Shown here piece by piece: positions 3,312 through 29,225 of a stretch of DNA of 42,740 bases. The notes beneath the pieces are model-generated. The model was not told the origin of the DNA. It did not search any database and saw only the letters and a list, made by a program, of their open reading frames with translations. The position numbers and the translations under genes are program-made. This stretch comes from Planctomycetaceae bacterium (GTDB lineage: Bacteria > Planctomycetota > Planctomycetia > Planctomycetales > Planctomycetaceae): positions 1 through 42,740 of the forward strand of contig CANJQC010000035.1 in assembly GCA_947476295.1 (NCBI GenBank). Direction: 5' to 3'. How positions within the stretch are numbered: position 1 is the stretch's first letter; each line of letters opens with the position of its first letter.

Positions 3312-3785
3312 CTACAGTTTCTCAATCAACGCCGATACGGATTCCGCATTCATGTCCATATGACATTCGTCATCCACTAGAATGCAGGGAGCCCCTTCAC
3401 AGGCACCCAGACACTCGGCAAACTCCAATGTCACCTTGCCATCTGCTGACGTTTGTCCAGGATGCATGTGAAACTTATTACAGACCTTTTCCAGAACTTC
3501 TTCGCCACCACGCAACATGCACGAAATACTGCGACAGACCCAGATTCGATGATTTCCGAGAGCGTGTTTTTCATCCTTAAAGAAGTTATAAAACGACATC
3601 GTGTCGTGAACTTCTGCAGGGTGCAACTCCAGTAATTCAGCGATCCCGATGATTGCCTCTGTCGAGACCGCCCGCATGGCATCATGCACGATGTGCAGCG
3701 CCGGAAGCGTCACCGCTCGTTTGTTCGGATATTTTGGAAACTCCTGACGAATCCGCAAACGGAGTTCTTCACTTAGCTCACTCAT
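3312..3785 (-). CDS. nuoE: NADH-quinone oxidoreductase subunit E
   Basis: This is the thioredoxin-like 2Fe-2S subunit of the complex I NADH module (cluster N1a). From the ATG at 3785 the product has 157 residues, close to the family norm. The four cluster ligands are the CxxxxC in VCRSISC and the CxxxC in ECLGACEGAP. The reading frame stays open for 17 more codons upstream, but that stretch runs through the palindromic element at 3812-3839 and does not look like NuoE, so the start beginning MSELSEELRL is preferred. It lies 66 nt after nuoD and 94 nt before nuoF. Confidence 0.95.
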   Translation of the reverse strand: MSELSEELRLRIRQEFPKYPNKRAVTLPALHIVHDAMRAVSTEAIIGIAELLELHPAEVHDTMSFYNFFKDEKHALGNHRIWVCRSISCMLRGGEEVLEKVCNKFHMHPGQTSADGKVTLEFAECLGACEGAPCILVDDECHMDMNAESVSALIEKL

Positions 3786-3811
3786 TGATAAACAGCCTCG
3801 CCGCCTCGTAG

Positions 3812-3839
3812 GGTGTGACCAGCGAAGCGCAGGCACACC
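3812..3839. repeat. Palindromic element between nuoD and nuoE
   Basis: Positions 3812-3817 pair with 3834-3839 (GGTGTG with CACACC). Read on the minus strand, the loop contains CTGCGCTTCGCT followed by GG, and CTAC follows the stem. The element at 6677-6704 has the same loop and the same CTAC but an unrelated complementary stem. The right arm of the 28.5 kb repeat matches this element's right side at 16 of 18 positions. Confidence 0.7.
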
Positions 3840-3851
3840 ATCAAGCTTTGT

Positions 3852-5072
3852 CTAACGATCCAACTCCGCCGCAATAATGTTGAGACTTCCTAGTACCGCC
3901 ACCACGTCGCTGAGTTGATGATCCTTGATCATGTGCGGAAACATGGCGAAGTGAATGTAAGATGGCGGGCGAGTTCTTGCGCGATACGCCCGCGTTTCCG
4001 CGTTGCCCACGATAAAGAAACCCAGCTCGCCATTCGGTGATTCCGTCGCCGCGTATACCTGCTCACGAGGCACAGCGTAGCCCTTGTTCGGCATGATGAC
4101 TTCGAAGTGCTGAATGAGCCCTTCGATACTGCGATACACGGACGGCTTTGCAGGCAGAACCATGTCACTGTCGACGGCAATATTCACTGGTCCGGCCGGG
4201 ATGTTTTCAATCGCCTGCTCGATGATTTTCAGGCTTTCCAGCAATTCACCCATCCGCACCAGAAACCGAGCGTAACAGTCACCGTTCTTTGAACAGACGA
4301 CATCAAAATCCAGATCTTCGTAAGCCAGATACGGTTCATCGCGACGCAGGTCACGTTCAATCCCGCTCGCTCGCGCGATCGGCCCGCTGGCACTCAAGTT
4401 CACTGCATCTTCAGTGCTCAAGTAGCCAATACCTTTTGTGCGATCGACGAAAATACGGTTCTTCGTCAACAGTCGATCAACTTCGTCGTAGACCTTTGGA
4501 AACTCTTTGATGAACTTGCGAACACTGTTGATCCAGTCCATGTTGACATCAAACAGCACGCCACCGACACGGGTGTAGCTGGTGTGGAACCGCTGGCCCG
4601 AGGCCATTTCAACAATGTCATAAATGTGTTCGCGTTGCTGAAAAAAGTAAAGGAACGCCGTGAATCCACCTAAGTCCAGGGCCGTAGTGCCGACGTTCAG
4701 CAGGTGGTCGTGCATCCGCATCAGTTCAGCGAGGATGGTTCTCAAATACTTGCAGCGCGGTGTGAGTTCAATTCCAAGCAGTTTTTCAACCGCATGGTGC
4801 CATGAAATCTCGTTTGCCAGCGGCGACAGATAATTCATGCGATCGACGATCGTCACGTACTGGTTGAAATCCAGATGTTCGCCAAGCTTTTCGAATCCGC
4901 TGTGCAGGTAACCAATGTAAGGCACAGCCTTTAACACTCGTTCACCATCCAGCGTCAGTACTAGTCGCAGCGTCGTATGCGTTGCCGGGTGTTGAGGCCC
5001 GAAATTCAGCGTCCAGACGTATTCACGCTCAGCCGACTCAGCTTCCAAGTTATCAACGGCAGATAAGGGCAT
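3852..5072 (-). CDS. nuoD: NADH-quinone oxidoreductase subunit D
   Basis: This is the 49-kDa-type subunit of complex I. With NuoB it forms the quinone-reduction site at the junction of the peripheral and membrane arms. The 406-residue length is standard. The N-terminal NFGPQHPATH motif (about residues 24-33) carries the conserved histidines near the quinone pocket. The C-terminus ends in the typical SLNIIAAELDR-like tail with Asp and Arg. It is a separate gene here, not a NuoCD fusion. It is separated from nuoC by apbE and by a 443-nt gap, so it may have its own promoter. No clear Shine-Dalgarno sequence precedes the ATG. Confidence 0.97.
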   Translation of the reverse strand: MPLSAVDNLEAESAEREYVWTLNFGPQHPATHTTLRLVLTLDGERVLKAVPYIGYLHSGFEKLGEHLDFNQYVTIVDRMNYLSPLANEISWHHAVEKLLGIELTPRCKYLRTILAELMRMHDHLLNVGTTALDLGGFTAFLYFFQQREHIYDIVEMASGQRFHTSYTRVGGVLFDVNMDWINSVRKFIKEFPKVYDEVDRLLTKNRIFVDRTKGIGYLSTEDAVNLSASGPIARASGIERDLRRDEPYLAYEDLDFDVVCSKNGDCYARFLVRMGELLESLKIIEQAIENIPAGPVNIAVDSDMVLPAKPSVYRSIEGLIQHFEVIMPNKGYAVPREQVYAATESPNGELGFFIVGNAETRAYRARTRPPSYIHFAMFPHMIKDHQLSDVVAVLGSLNIIAAELDR

Positions 5073-5515
5073 CGAAAAAGACCGATGGAAAAGGAAAAAC
5101 TTGCAGCTGCGACGATGGAGATCTGGTCACCGTATGATGAACACCCTGCTCCAAAACGAACAGGGCAGCACGCATGGAAACAATTTTTCCCATTCCCCGC
5201 ATTCTGGCAGAGAGTTTGAAAATCACCAGAGACGCTGTCAGGGCGTCGCTTCACTGAGAATTCCCGGAGAAAACTCGTCTCGCATTTGGCCGAATCTGGC
5301 AGTAAACAGCCTAGATATCCATAACTATTCCGCGTCATCCGCAGCAAGCGTCCCGCTGAAGTACTGGACTTACACCAGCATTGCAGCGTCGGGCTAGGTT
5401 TGCTGAAACAAGAAAGCACTGACGAGTCACGGCACTCCAAATCTGGAGTGCTCCGACTTGTCAAAGCTTTCCTTTTCCACCGGTGTCGCCTGCGTCAAAT
5501 GCTGGATGTTTCGGA
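5073..5515. other. 443-nt gap between apbE and nuoD
   Basis: I see no convincing gene here. The reading frames are short and low in family-like sequence, and a 152-codon minus-strand frame overlapping the nuoD start resembles no family. The gap contains an 8-bp perfect hairpin (5432-5451) and, near 5360-5390, a stretch resembling the sequence that follows the 6677-6704 palindrome. It may carry a promoter for nuoDEFG, but no promoter motif stands out. Confidence 0.5.
5432..5451. repeat. 8-bp hairpin with 4-nt loop downstream of apbE
   Basis: GCACTCCA at 5432-5439 is the reverse complement of 5444-5451, with an AATC loop. It lies 64 nt past the apbE stop codon on the minus strand. No T-tract follows, so a factor-independent terminator is only possible; a palindromic repeat is equally likely. 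Confidence 0.5.
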
Positions 5516-6652
5516 TCATGTGCGTCGAAAAAGCACAATCGCCGTTGCTGTCAGAGCCAACAGGAAAACAGCCAAAGTTGCGGAAAATGGAATCGTTCGC
5601 TGGATGACCGATTCTTTCGAGTTTGAAATCGATGGCGACGAACCAGTTGCAAGAAACTCGCCAGTCGCGTGTTCAACAATTGTCTTTTCATCGACCAAAT
5701 CTAGGAATAAGACCGAAAGCCCGTGCAGCTTCGCGAATTGTAAACCCCGCTCAATTCCCATCACCATCAATCCTGTAGCCAGACCATCAGCCGTCATGCA
5801 CGAATCGCTCAGGACAGACACCGAGGCTGGAGGATTTATCATTGGCTGACCCGTCGCCGGATCAATCGTGTGAGAATACCGAACGCCTTTGTACTCGAAG
5901 TAATTCCGATAGTTTCCGGATGTGGAAACGGACACTTCCGCGCATTCAATTACCCGATGAATCTCGCCGAACGGCGATTCAACACCCACTCGCCACTTTT
6001 CGCCGTTGGCTTTGAAGGTCCCGGTCCGGACTTCACCGCTGATATCCACGACATGCGACGGATATCCCAGCTTTGTCAATTGCTGAGACAATCGGTCGGT
6101 GCCATGACCTGGCGCAACCGCGGAAAGATTCAACGTGAGATCTGAGCGTGTTTTGCGAATCGACGGCGGTTCCGCCTGCACGTCGATGAATTGCATGCCG
6201 GTCTTGCTTCGAGCTAGGTCGATCGCTTCCTGGCTCGGAAATGACTCAGGTCGCTTCGCGCCAAACCCCCACAGGTCAATCAGCGGCGCGACCGTTGGAT
6301 CGAAAGCTCCATCTGTGACTTTGTGAAGTCGGATCGACTCCAATACCACTTCGGCAAAGCCGGGACTCACGGGAAACCAGTCGGTACTCTCGGACTGATT
6401 GAACTTGGAGATTTCAGAGTCCAGATCCCACGTTGACATCTGCCGATTGACGTCTGCAAGGACTGCGTCAATCTCTGTCTGAATCTCTGCGGCATTGGAC
6501 TCGGTCGCCCCATCAATGGTAATCGCATAGTACGAACCCATCGTCTGGCCGTTCAGCTTGAGCGTCTCGGCGTTTATTGGGACAGCGAGCGTGACGACGA
6601 AGATCGTGACGAACAGAATGACCTTTGCAAGGATGTGAACGAGAGAATTCAT
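5516..6652 (-). CDS. apbE: FAD:protein FMN transferase (ApbE family)
   Basis: ApbE enzymes transfer FMN from FAD onto a Thr or Ser of target flavoproteins in or facing the cell envelope. From the ATG at 6652 the product has 378 residues: a hydrophobic signal peptide (about residues 1-28, ending near INAE), the ApbE core and a C-terminal hydrophobic helix (LAVFLLALTATAIVLF) ending in RRT. Core motifs are MGSYYAI near the N-terminus, AVAPGHGTDRL at the position of the usual GxAKGY..D segment, HTIDPATGQP, and the Mg-binding MTADGLATGLMVMG. The frame is open to a further ATG at 6718, but that extension runs through a palindromic repeat and would bury the signal peptide. Its place inside a nuo gene run is unusual, since ApbE is better known for maturing Nqr and Rnf subunits. 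Confidence 0.92.
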   Translation of the reverse strand: MNSLVHILAKVILFVTIFVVTLAVPINAETLKLNGQTMGSYYAITIDGATESNAAEIQTEIDAVLADVNRQMSTWDLDSEISKFNQSESTDWFPVSPGFAEVVLESIRLHKVTDGAFDPTVAPLIDLWGFGAKRPESFPSQEAIDLARSKTGMQFIDVQAEPPSIRKTRSDLTLNLSAVAPGHGTDRLSQQLTKLGYPSHVVDISGEVRTGTFKANGEKWRVGVESPFGEIHRVIECAEVSVSTSGNYRNYFEYKGVRYSHTIDPATGQPMINPPASVSVLSDSCMTADGLATGLMVMGIERGLQFAKLHGLSVLFLDLVDEKTIVEHATGEFLATGSSPSISNSKESVIQRTIPFSATLAVFLLALTATAIVLFRRT

Positions 6653-6676
6653 TGGGGCCTGCAAATTCGTCAGCCT

Positions 6677-6704
6677 GCCGGAACTGCGCTTCGCTTGGTC
6701 CGGC
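6677..6704. repeat. Palindromic element between nuoC and apbE
   Basis: GCCGGA at 6677-6682 pairs with TCCGGC at 6699-6704. The loop contains CTGCGCTTCGCTTGG and CTAC follows the stem. Loop and flank match the minus-strand reading of 3812-3839, but the stem bases differ and remain complementary. A partial copy of the 4-73 repeat (GGAGGGCTGAC...CCGCTCGCC) follows at 6751-6777. Confidence 0.7.
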
Positions 6705-6788
6705 CTACACCAATGCATTCCATTCGCGAAATTCGCGGGCAGAACTCACTCGGAGGGCTGACACCCAGCCGCTCGCCTCAACGCCACT

Positions 6789-27614: not shown

Positions 27615-28358
27615 TCATGCTTTCAAAAATGCAATCGCTTCCCGAACGCTGATCGTACCTTCATAAATCGCGCGACCTGTGATGGCACCGATGAGATTAG
27701 GATGCGAGGCTGCAATCTTCTTGAGGGCAGCAATGTCATCCATCGTCGTCACGCCTCCGGATGCGATCACCGGCAGACCCATGTCGGCCAGTATGCAAAA
27801 ATCATCCAGAGTCTGTTGGTCAATGCCCTGCATCATGCCGTCGTTCGCGATGTTTGTATAGATCACAGCCGCAAGTGGCAGGCCGACGAATCTCTGGGCC
27901 AGCTCTGTTACAGAAACTTTGGAAACTTCCAGCCATCCGTCAGTCGCGACCATCGAATCCCGAGCATCCAGACCCAGCGCCAGTTGATTCGGGAACCTTG
28001 CACACATTTCAGCGAACCAATCCGGCTCGCGGAGCGCCTTGGTGCCGATGATCACGCGATCGACACCGGTCTGATCGATGGTGGAGCGCACGCTGTCTTC
28101 GCTGCGAATGCCGCCACCGAGCTGACAAGGCAATCCGGTGGCCGTGATGATTCGCCGCACGACGTCCTGATTCACTGGACGTCCGGCTTTTGCACCGTCA
28201 AGGTCCACCAAATGCAGCCGTTTGGCACCTTCATCGCGCCAACGCAGCGCCATCTCGACCGGGTCATCGGAGAATACGGTTCTGTCGTCATAGTTTCCCT
28301 GACGAAGTCGAACGCATCGACCTTCCAAGAGATCGATCGCGGGAAGAAGCTGGAGCAT
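27615..28358 (-). CDS. hisA: ProFAR isomerase (HisA)
   Basis: HisA is the phosphoribosylformimino-5-aminoimidazole carboxamide ribotide isomerase of histidine biosynthesis. It is a TIM barrel of 247 residues with the catalytic aspartates in [13 protein letters not shown] (strand 1) and in the strand-5 segment ALGLDARD, and phosphate-binding glycines in QLGGGIRS and VIASGGV. C-terminal [11 protein letters not shown] is typical. It follows hisH after 192 nt containing palindromic repeats and precedes the dioxygenase-like gene by 7 nt. Length is normal. Confidence 0.96.
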
Positions 28359-28472: not shown

Positions 28473-28483
28473 CCCGGTTTCAA

Positions 28484-28571
28484 CAGGGTGGGACCAGCGA
28501 GCGCCGACCCAACTTAATCGGCGTCGAACACGGCAGGCCGGCGCAGCCTTTCAGCCGCTGGTCCCACCCTG
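28484..28571. repeat. 16-bp inverted repeat that overlaps the hisH 3' end
   Basis: Positions 28484-28499 are the exact reverse complement of 28556-28571, and an inner GCGCC/GGCGC pair (28501-28505 with 28540-28544) adds to the stem. The right arm and its flank resemble the minus-strand right side of the 3812-3839 element at 16 of 18 positions. The hisH stop codon (28551-28553) lies inside the element, so its arm codes for the last HisH residues. Confidence 0.8.
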
Positions 28572-29225
28572 CGATCTGTTGAGTCTTTGCACACTTGTCG
28601 TCGCCTCCACCGTCACCGCCAGAAAATTCTTCAGCAACTGCATTCCACACGACTGACTTTTTTCCGGATGGAACTGAGTCGCCATGACATTGCCTTTTGC
28701 GACTACTGAAACGAACGGACGGCCATAGTCGGTTGTGGCAGCAATCCATGATTGATCTGTCGGAACGACGTGGTAGCTATGAACGAAGTAAAACCAAGGC
28801 TCTGGGCCAAGACTCCGGAAAATACCGTGATCGGGCTGCGCACTTCGGTCCAGTTGATTCCAGCCCATGTGCGGAATCTTGTATTCGGCGGGCAAGTCAA
28901 AACGCTGAACGATGCCGGGGATGATTTTGAGCCCGTCGTGTTCGCCGTCTTCAAGTGACACATCCATGAGCAACTGCAATCCCAGACAGATTCCCAGAAA
29001 AGGCCGGTCAGCCGCAATATGGTCTTTGATAACACCAATCAGATCCTGTTGACGCAGAGCCGCAATTGCATCTCGAAACGCCCCGACACCCGGCAACACA
29101 ACGCGCGTCGCCGCAGCAATCTCGGCTGGCTGAGAACTGATGATCGCGGGTTCTCCAATGCGTTCAAATGCTTTCTGGACGCTTCTAAGATTTCCCATTC
29201 CGTAGTCAATGATGATGGTCGCCAT
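28551..29225 (-). CDS. hisH: Imidazole glycerol phosphate synthase subunit HisH
   Basis: HisH is the glutaminase subunit that delivers ammonia to HisF in histidine biosynthesis. The 224-residue protein has the catalytic C80 in GICLGLQ and the H186/E188 pair in TQFHPEKSQ, with the N-terminal [10 protein letters not shown] and PGVGAF motifs. The usual C-terminus (about LLKNFL, residue 202) is followed by about 20 extra residues ending NRSQGGTSG. The last six of these are encoded by one arm of the palindromic repeat at 28484-28571. It starts 3 nt after the stop of the zinc-ribbon gene, so the two are probably translationally coupled. Confidence 0.95.

Follow-up and report, generated by a model that had tools for sequence, protein, structure and literature searches.

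REPINs are inverted pairs of REP repeats that act as a mobile unit together with a RAYT, a REP-associated tyrosine transposase, and one type of E. coli REP has a GCCGGA stem. Closest to the repeats analyzed here are the GTAG-REP families, which occur also in Planctomycetes, with several families found together in R. baltica. These families share with ours the GTAG foot, stems of 6-13 bp, complex loops, head-head dimers, stem sub-families and an association with a RAYT, and in most of them sub-families can be told apart by stems that differ in sequence yet remain complementary (Di Nocera et al. 2013, PMC3733652). The E. coli REP/BIME system with its transposase TnpA-REP (PDB 4ER8) resembles the present family in the GTAG, the mismatches in mid-stem, the inverted pairs and a homologous transposase, but differs in the core; the REPINs of Pseudomonas fluorescens (PMC3116915) likewise combine inverted REP pairs with a RAYT but have a different sequence. 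As far as the consulted portions of the respective papers go, E. coli REPs require the GTAG and the bulge but not particular letters in the loop, another REPtron depends on its loop, and the part of the REP that is read differed between the REPtrons tested (PMC8266576); furthermore, coevolution of REPs and RAYTs has been reported (PMC2817692). A topic-word search of titles and the opening parts of abstracts, with the consensus in Figure 1 of PMC3733652 outside the comparison, returned no publication naming the repeat family described below.

The kind of repeat found here is already known, and the case at hand is a REPtron of a planctomycete, with naturally occurring variants of the stem. We analyzed a stretch of 42,740 nt (the window) from a Planctomycetaceae bacterium. 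Very probably, the repeats in question represent a GTAG-tagged REP family, largely arranged in BIME- or REPIN-like inverted pairs and spread by a transposase of the RAYT/TnpA-REP type.

REP units in the window

The sequence-only reading of the window had described two hairpins with a common loop, one with the stem GGTGTG/CACACC at 3812-3839 and the other with the stem GCCGGA/TCCGGC at 6677-6704, each followed by CTAC. Both hairpins are present as described, and the CTAC found at both of them corresponds to the GTAG by which REP repeats are tagged. Because this CTAC reads GTAG on the opposite strand, the complete units cover positions 3808-3839 on the plus strand (W1, GTAG-GGTGTG-ACCAGCGAAGCGCAGG-CACACC) and 6677-6708 on the minus strand (W2, GTAG-GCCGGA-CCAAGCGAAGCGCAGT-TCCGGC). 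Each unit is 32 nt long and consists of GTAG, a 6-bp stem, a mismatched core, approximately ACMAGCGnAGCGCMGG in the window copies, and the complementary stem. The two stems are indeed different and compensated, although calling them unrelated was slightly too strong, given that they agree in the G at positions 1 and 4. Folded as DNA, W1 and W2 yield nearly identical hairpins of -9.6 and -8.4 kcal/mol, with the outer 6-bp stem, a mismatched middle, an inner GCG/CGC stem and a 3-nt loop; 0 of 200 shuffled sequences folded as well for W1 and 2 of 200 for W2.

A right arm noticed earlier at 28556-28571 belongs to a related site, which is an inverted pair of copies spanning 28483-28572 with GTAG-like ends outside, but both copies are decayed. 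W3b (28532-28572, minus strand) is of a long-core GGTGGG type and scores weakly with the covariance model described below (E = 0.022), as does its partner W3a (28483-28513, plus strand), the match of which, at 0.65, is weak when taken alone. Folded singly, both are poor, with 43 (W3b) and 88 (W3a) of 200 shuffles as good; folded together, the pair reaches -31.9 kcal/mol, a value matched by none of 200 shuffles.

The genes named below all lie on the minus strand. W1 is located between a nuoD-like gene upstream (3852-5072; PF00346, E = 4.4e-104) and a nuoE-like gene downstream (3312-3785; PF01257, E = 3e-40). W2 lies directly 5' of the likely start of an apbE-like gene (5516-6652; PF02424, E = 6.3e-79 on the open reading frame 5516-6718), with the ATG at about 6652, and is part of the leader of this gene provided that the second Met of the frame, chosen here, is the start. 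The W3 pair is found between a hisH-like gene (28551-29225; identified from PF00117, E = 2e-20, and its translation), the 3' end of which enters W3b, and a hisA-like gene that follows the pair (27615-28358; PF00977, E = 3.5e-73). The last six codons and the stop codon of the hisH frame (28551-28572) are supplied by W3b, and the translation accordingly ends in QGGTSG.

Copies and stems across the genome

The sequence-only reading proposed a genome search with a covariance model, and such a search did recover many, mostly extragenic copies. In the genome of 5.99 Mb, a model built from 22 copies, W1 and W2 among them, produced 112 matches at E<=0.01 and, with the threshold relaxed to E<=1, 130 matches, of which a few with the poorest scores may be due to chance. 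Because only 150 of the 4528 first-look candidates were scored, further copies possibly were missed. W1 and W2 match with E-values of 4.5e-9 and 1.0e-6, respectively; both are training rows, so that the match of W1 is one by construction. A neighbor within 150 nt was found for 92 of the 130 copies, and in 44 of the 47 neighboring pairs the GTAG ends are outside, with 13 nt as the commonest gap. Open reading frames of at least 150 amino acids hold 38 of the 130 copies, compared to 79% of positions drawn at random from the same loci, in a test that is crude in that spurious frames are included. The copies are therefore high in number, mainly extragenic and mostly arranged in inverted pairs.

The GTAG is exact in 111 of the 130 copies and is replaced by GCAG in 7 more. 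Counted as exact 6-mers, the stems are GGTGGG/CCCACC in 54 copies, GGTGTG/CACACC in 31 and GCCGGA/TCCGGC in 17; the remaining 28 are mostly one-letter variants of these or partial matches out of register. All six stem pairs form in 102 copies, which are exactly the three named classes. GGTGGG and GGTGTG are one compensated base pair apart, whereas GCCGGA has in common with both of them only the G at the first and fourth positions and, in the case of GGTGGG, the one at position 5 as well. Given that the model is structure-aware and rewards pairing, this count is partly circular, and a stem-free search was therefore run, which answers the objection. A pattern that prescribed GTAG, the core and the last C of the stem, but no other stem letter, matched 42 times in the genome, compared to 0 for the reversed pattern. 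Among these 42 copies, the five unconstrained stem positions pair completely in 36 and at four of five in the other 6, whereas only 34% reach 5/5 when the right arms are dealt anew. The compensated stems around a fixed core that had been suspected from two elements thus hold for the genome. Across 40 genomes, the stem-free pattern matched in 11, two of which (G028 and G034) have a single, visibly unpaired match each, as chance would give; the reversed control gave 0 or 1 match per strand in each of the 40.

Presence and absence in related genomes

The spacer between nuoD and nuoE was measurable in 16 of the 17 loci of the genus, and the REP is absent from it in 14 of these 16 genomes, the present one included in the count. 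The spacers with the REP measure 69 nt in this genome and 87 nt in G001, and those without it 20-57 nt in 13 genomes. In G017 (L283), the nuoD-nuoE spacer is occupied by a different sequence of 182 nt, which includes GGAGGCTCC-type repeats. Of the 21 loci for the hisH-hisA spacer, 15 were used and 8 were measurable; the REP is absent in 7 of the 8 genomes, again counting our own, and the spacer is 243 nt long with the REP pair here but 86-147 nt long without it in the other seven. Presence and absence of the REP are seen, therefore, within two gene clusters, nuo and his, and in the latter a REP furnishes the end of a reading frame.

A RAYT between two copies

The genome (G000) has 11 Y1_Tnp places. 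One of these, on contig C19, is a RAYT gene (47-598, stop codon at 44-46) between two REP copies, which is the kind of transposase named beforehand as support for a mobile family. The copy at 2-42 lies one nucleotide past the stop codon and the copy at 616-647 lies 17 nt before the ATG; their stems are GGTGTG and GGTGGA, and the GTAG ends of both point toward the gene. The encoded protein scores 174 bits against NF047646, the REP-associated tyrosine transposase equivalog (cut-off 80), and its sole sequence match in the PDB at E<=0.001 is 4ER8, TnpA-REP (E = 9.5e-41). Aligned to 4ER8, it retains the HWH and the Y of YCHWNP, which we take to be the Y1/HUH transposase motifs of RAYTs. Contig C165 starts within an identical stretch of the RAYT C-terminus, followed by the same REP, and is taken as either the neighboring contig of C19 or a second copy of the RAYT. 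The location of the C19 RAYT at a contig end implies that the assembly breaks at these repeats.

Among 27 related transposase genes in named records, GTAG palindromes were present within 350 nt on both sides of 21, on one side of 4 and near neither end of 2, a count made without a chance control. Two of the one-sided cases (L138 and L151, as opposed to L150 and L152) are near contig ends, and one of the two genes without such palindromes (L137, the other being L145) has GTAG-tagged repeats of another shape. The stems beside these RAYTs vary (GTCGGATTA, CCCGTAA, GGCGGAT and others). A core similar to AGCGnAGCG is combined with other stems beside related transposases of Marinobacter, Massilia and Burkholderiales, but is not universal, because other relatives in the family carry quite different cores. 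The suggestion that the palindromes are specific to this lineage accordingly applies to this set of stems only and does not extend to the core. When stems and loops are mapped as labels onto a RAYT tree, the fewest changes are 23 for stems and 12 for loops; because the labels are hand-set and have unequal numbers of states, these figures do not rank stem against loop by conservation.

The covariance model finds copies in 9 of 40 genomes, our own included. A RAYT at least 85% identical is encoded in four genomes (G000, G001, G004 and G005), all of which have the repeats, compared to 5 of the 36 genomes that lack such a RAYT (Fisher p = 0.0014, a value that ignores the relatedness of the genomes). 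The five genomes with copies but no close RAYT, several of which are incomplete MAGs, are G012 (4 copies), G013 (20), G015 (86), G017 (17) and G023 (9); they count against spread by this RAYT. More distant RAYTs (48-49% identical) with GGTGTGT-stem palindromes beside them are found in G017 and also in G005; in G023, a RAYT 51% identical lies beside a different GTAG palindrome.

Proposed mobility and alternative explanations

The RAYT between copies, together with the GTAG palindromes on both sides of 21 of the 27 related genes, identifies the repeats as a GTAG-REP/REPtron family. By analogy with E. coli TnpA-REP, we infer that the RAYT recognizes, cuts and moves the REP. Under this model, a REP unit in single-stranded DNA, for example at replication, would fold; the RAYT would recognize the resulting hairpin by its GTAG foot and mismatched core, cut next to it and carry either one unit or an inverted pair to another location. 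The outer stem would have to pair whereas its letters would matter less, so that paired stem variants would be possible around a fixed core. The natural stem classes suggest that the parts read are GTAG and the mismatched core, with pairing as the main requirement on the outer stem; stem variety has its limit, however, in that all fully paired copies fall into only three classes, a single base pair separating two of them. Such variants around a constant core are ready substrates for the question of which part of the REP the transposase reads. Conversely, the contrast that the sequence-only reading drew between these palindromes and REPs cannot be upheld: the family is a REP family, GTAG-REP sub-families with alternative stems are in print, and the assumption of a constant stem and a variable loop in REPs does not apply generally, considering these sub-families (PMC3733652) and the reported REP-RAYT coevolution (PMC2817692).

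If the hairpins were merely chance palindromes sharing a GC-rich core, the loop pattern should be about as frequent as expected, and inside the window alone it is, with 2 matches against 1.79 expected, no better than chance, so that the window-only test did not reject this candidate. In the genome, the loop pattern with up to two mismatches matched 50 times compared to 16 for the reversed pattern, and it was the stem-free search, with 42 matches against none for the reverse and with every match pairing at 4/5 or 5/5 free positions, that led to the rejection of chance, to which we assign a negligible probability. Transcribed RNA hairpins that serve as terminators, attenuators or mRNA stabilizers in the nuo and his operons, with mobility as a secondary matter, would be in keeping with the location of W1 and W3 between co-directed genes and with the good folding of W1 and W2 under DNA parameters. 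Yet such functions leave the GTAG tag, the inverted pairs and the RAYT association unexplained, and the element is missing from the same spacers in most of the genomes measured (14 of 16 for nuo and 7 of 8 for his). Moreover, a search of the window against Rfam at the gathering score returned 0 matches. We consider a primary RNA function very improbable, and the earlier suggestion of an RNA-binding palindrome finds no backing, considering the lack of Rfam matches and an associated protein that belongs to a single-strand DNA transposase family.

The GCCGGA class

With up to three mismatches, the GCCGGA pattern matched 186 times in G001, 27 times in G023, 22 times in G000, 6 times in G013, 5 times in G012 and once in G004, compared to 0 for the reversed control in each of these six genomes; among the G001 matches listed, all but the last are without mismatch. 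In scans that required GTAG followed by the exact stem, no GCCGGA-flanked RAYT was detected beside the 11 Y1_Tnp places of G000, some of which are cut by contig ends, or at the 46 such places of G001, G012, G013, G015 and G023. A weak Y1_Tnp place on contig C66 of G001 adjoins a GGTGGG pair. A scan of 40 loci, taken from the best matches of a search that matched 62 of 170 genomes, revealed one GCCGGA-flanked RAYT, in a genome of another genus (G052). This RAYT shares 61% identity with the one on C19; GTAG-GCCGGA palindromes flank it on either side, one of them with a unit identical to copies in G000. In a quick tree, the G052 RAYT groups next to the GGTGKG RAYTs (SH-aLRT 88).

Because the G052 RAYT is GCCGGA-flanked, the GCCGGA class appears to have, or to have had, its own RAYT, and in G000 and G001 it would be an orphan, be served in trans or have its RAYT in an assembly gap. 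For W2 only, we find it reasonably probable that GCCGGA constitutes a REP family apart, with a RAYT of its own that has been lost or did not assemble here, and that its resemblance to GGTGKG reflects the descent of both from one older REPtron. This reading, which is compatible with the GTAG-REP/RAYT explanation, draws on the G052 locus and its shared unit, on the position of that RAYT in the tree and on the local RAYT at a contig end, where the assembly breaks at repeats; what speaks against it is that the scans detected no GCCGGA-flanked RAYT in the G000 or the G001 assembly, even though G001 is rated 100% complete and holds 186 pattern matches. It is rather unlikely, in our estimation, that a single RAYT acts in trans on several stem classes, with nothing read but the GTAG foot and the AGCGnAGCG core with its mismatches, and that the abundant, nearly identical GCCGGA copies of G001 were spread by the RAYT whose flanking REPs have GGTGTG and GGTGGG stems. 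Were service in trans to operate, whole stems would be exchangeable, and the outer stem would be the part of the mobile unit that only has to pair.

Other repeats in the window

Positions 1799-1878 of the window contain an inverted repeat, TTTGGAAAAGGGGTCAGGAACCAATAG, whose 27-bp arms match perfectly across a 26-nt spacer. Within the repeat lies GGGGTCAG, which fits the GGGGWSAS motif, a motif present in the repeats that flank TIRYT transposases according to the part of PMC3733652 used here. A second palindrome family, approximately CGGAGGGCTGACGCCCTGCCGCTCGCC, occurs at 4-74 and 6751-6777 and has 101 matches in the genome at up to three mismatches, compared to 0 for the reversed pattern. On contig C111 (L038, 1100-2060), copies of this family flank a gene with a Y1_Tnp domain (L038, 1294-1851), and given these copies on both sides, the CGGAGGGCTGACGCCCTGCCGCTCGCC family, too, looks transposase-linked.
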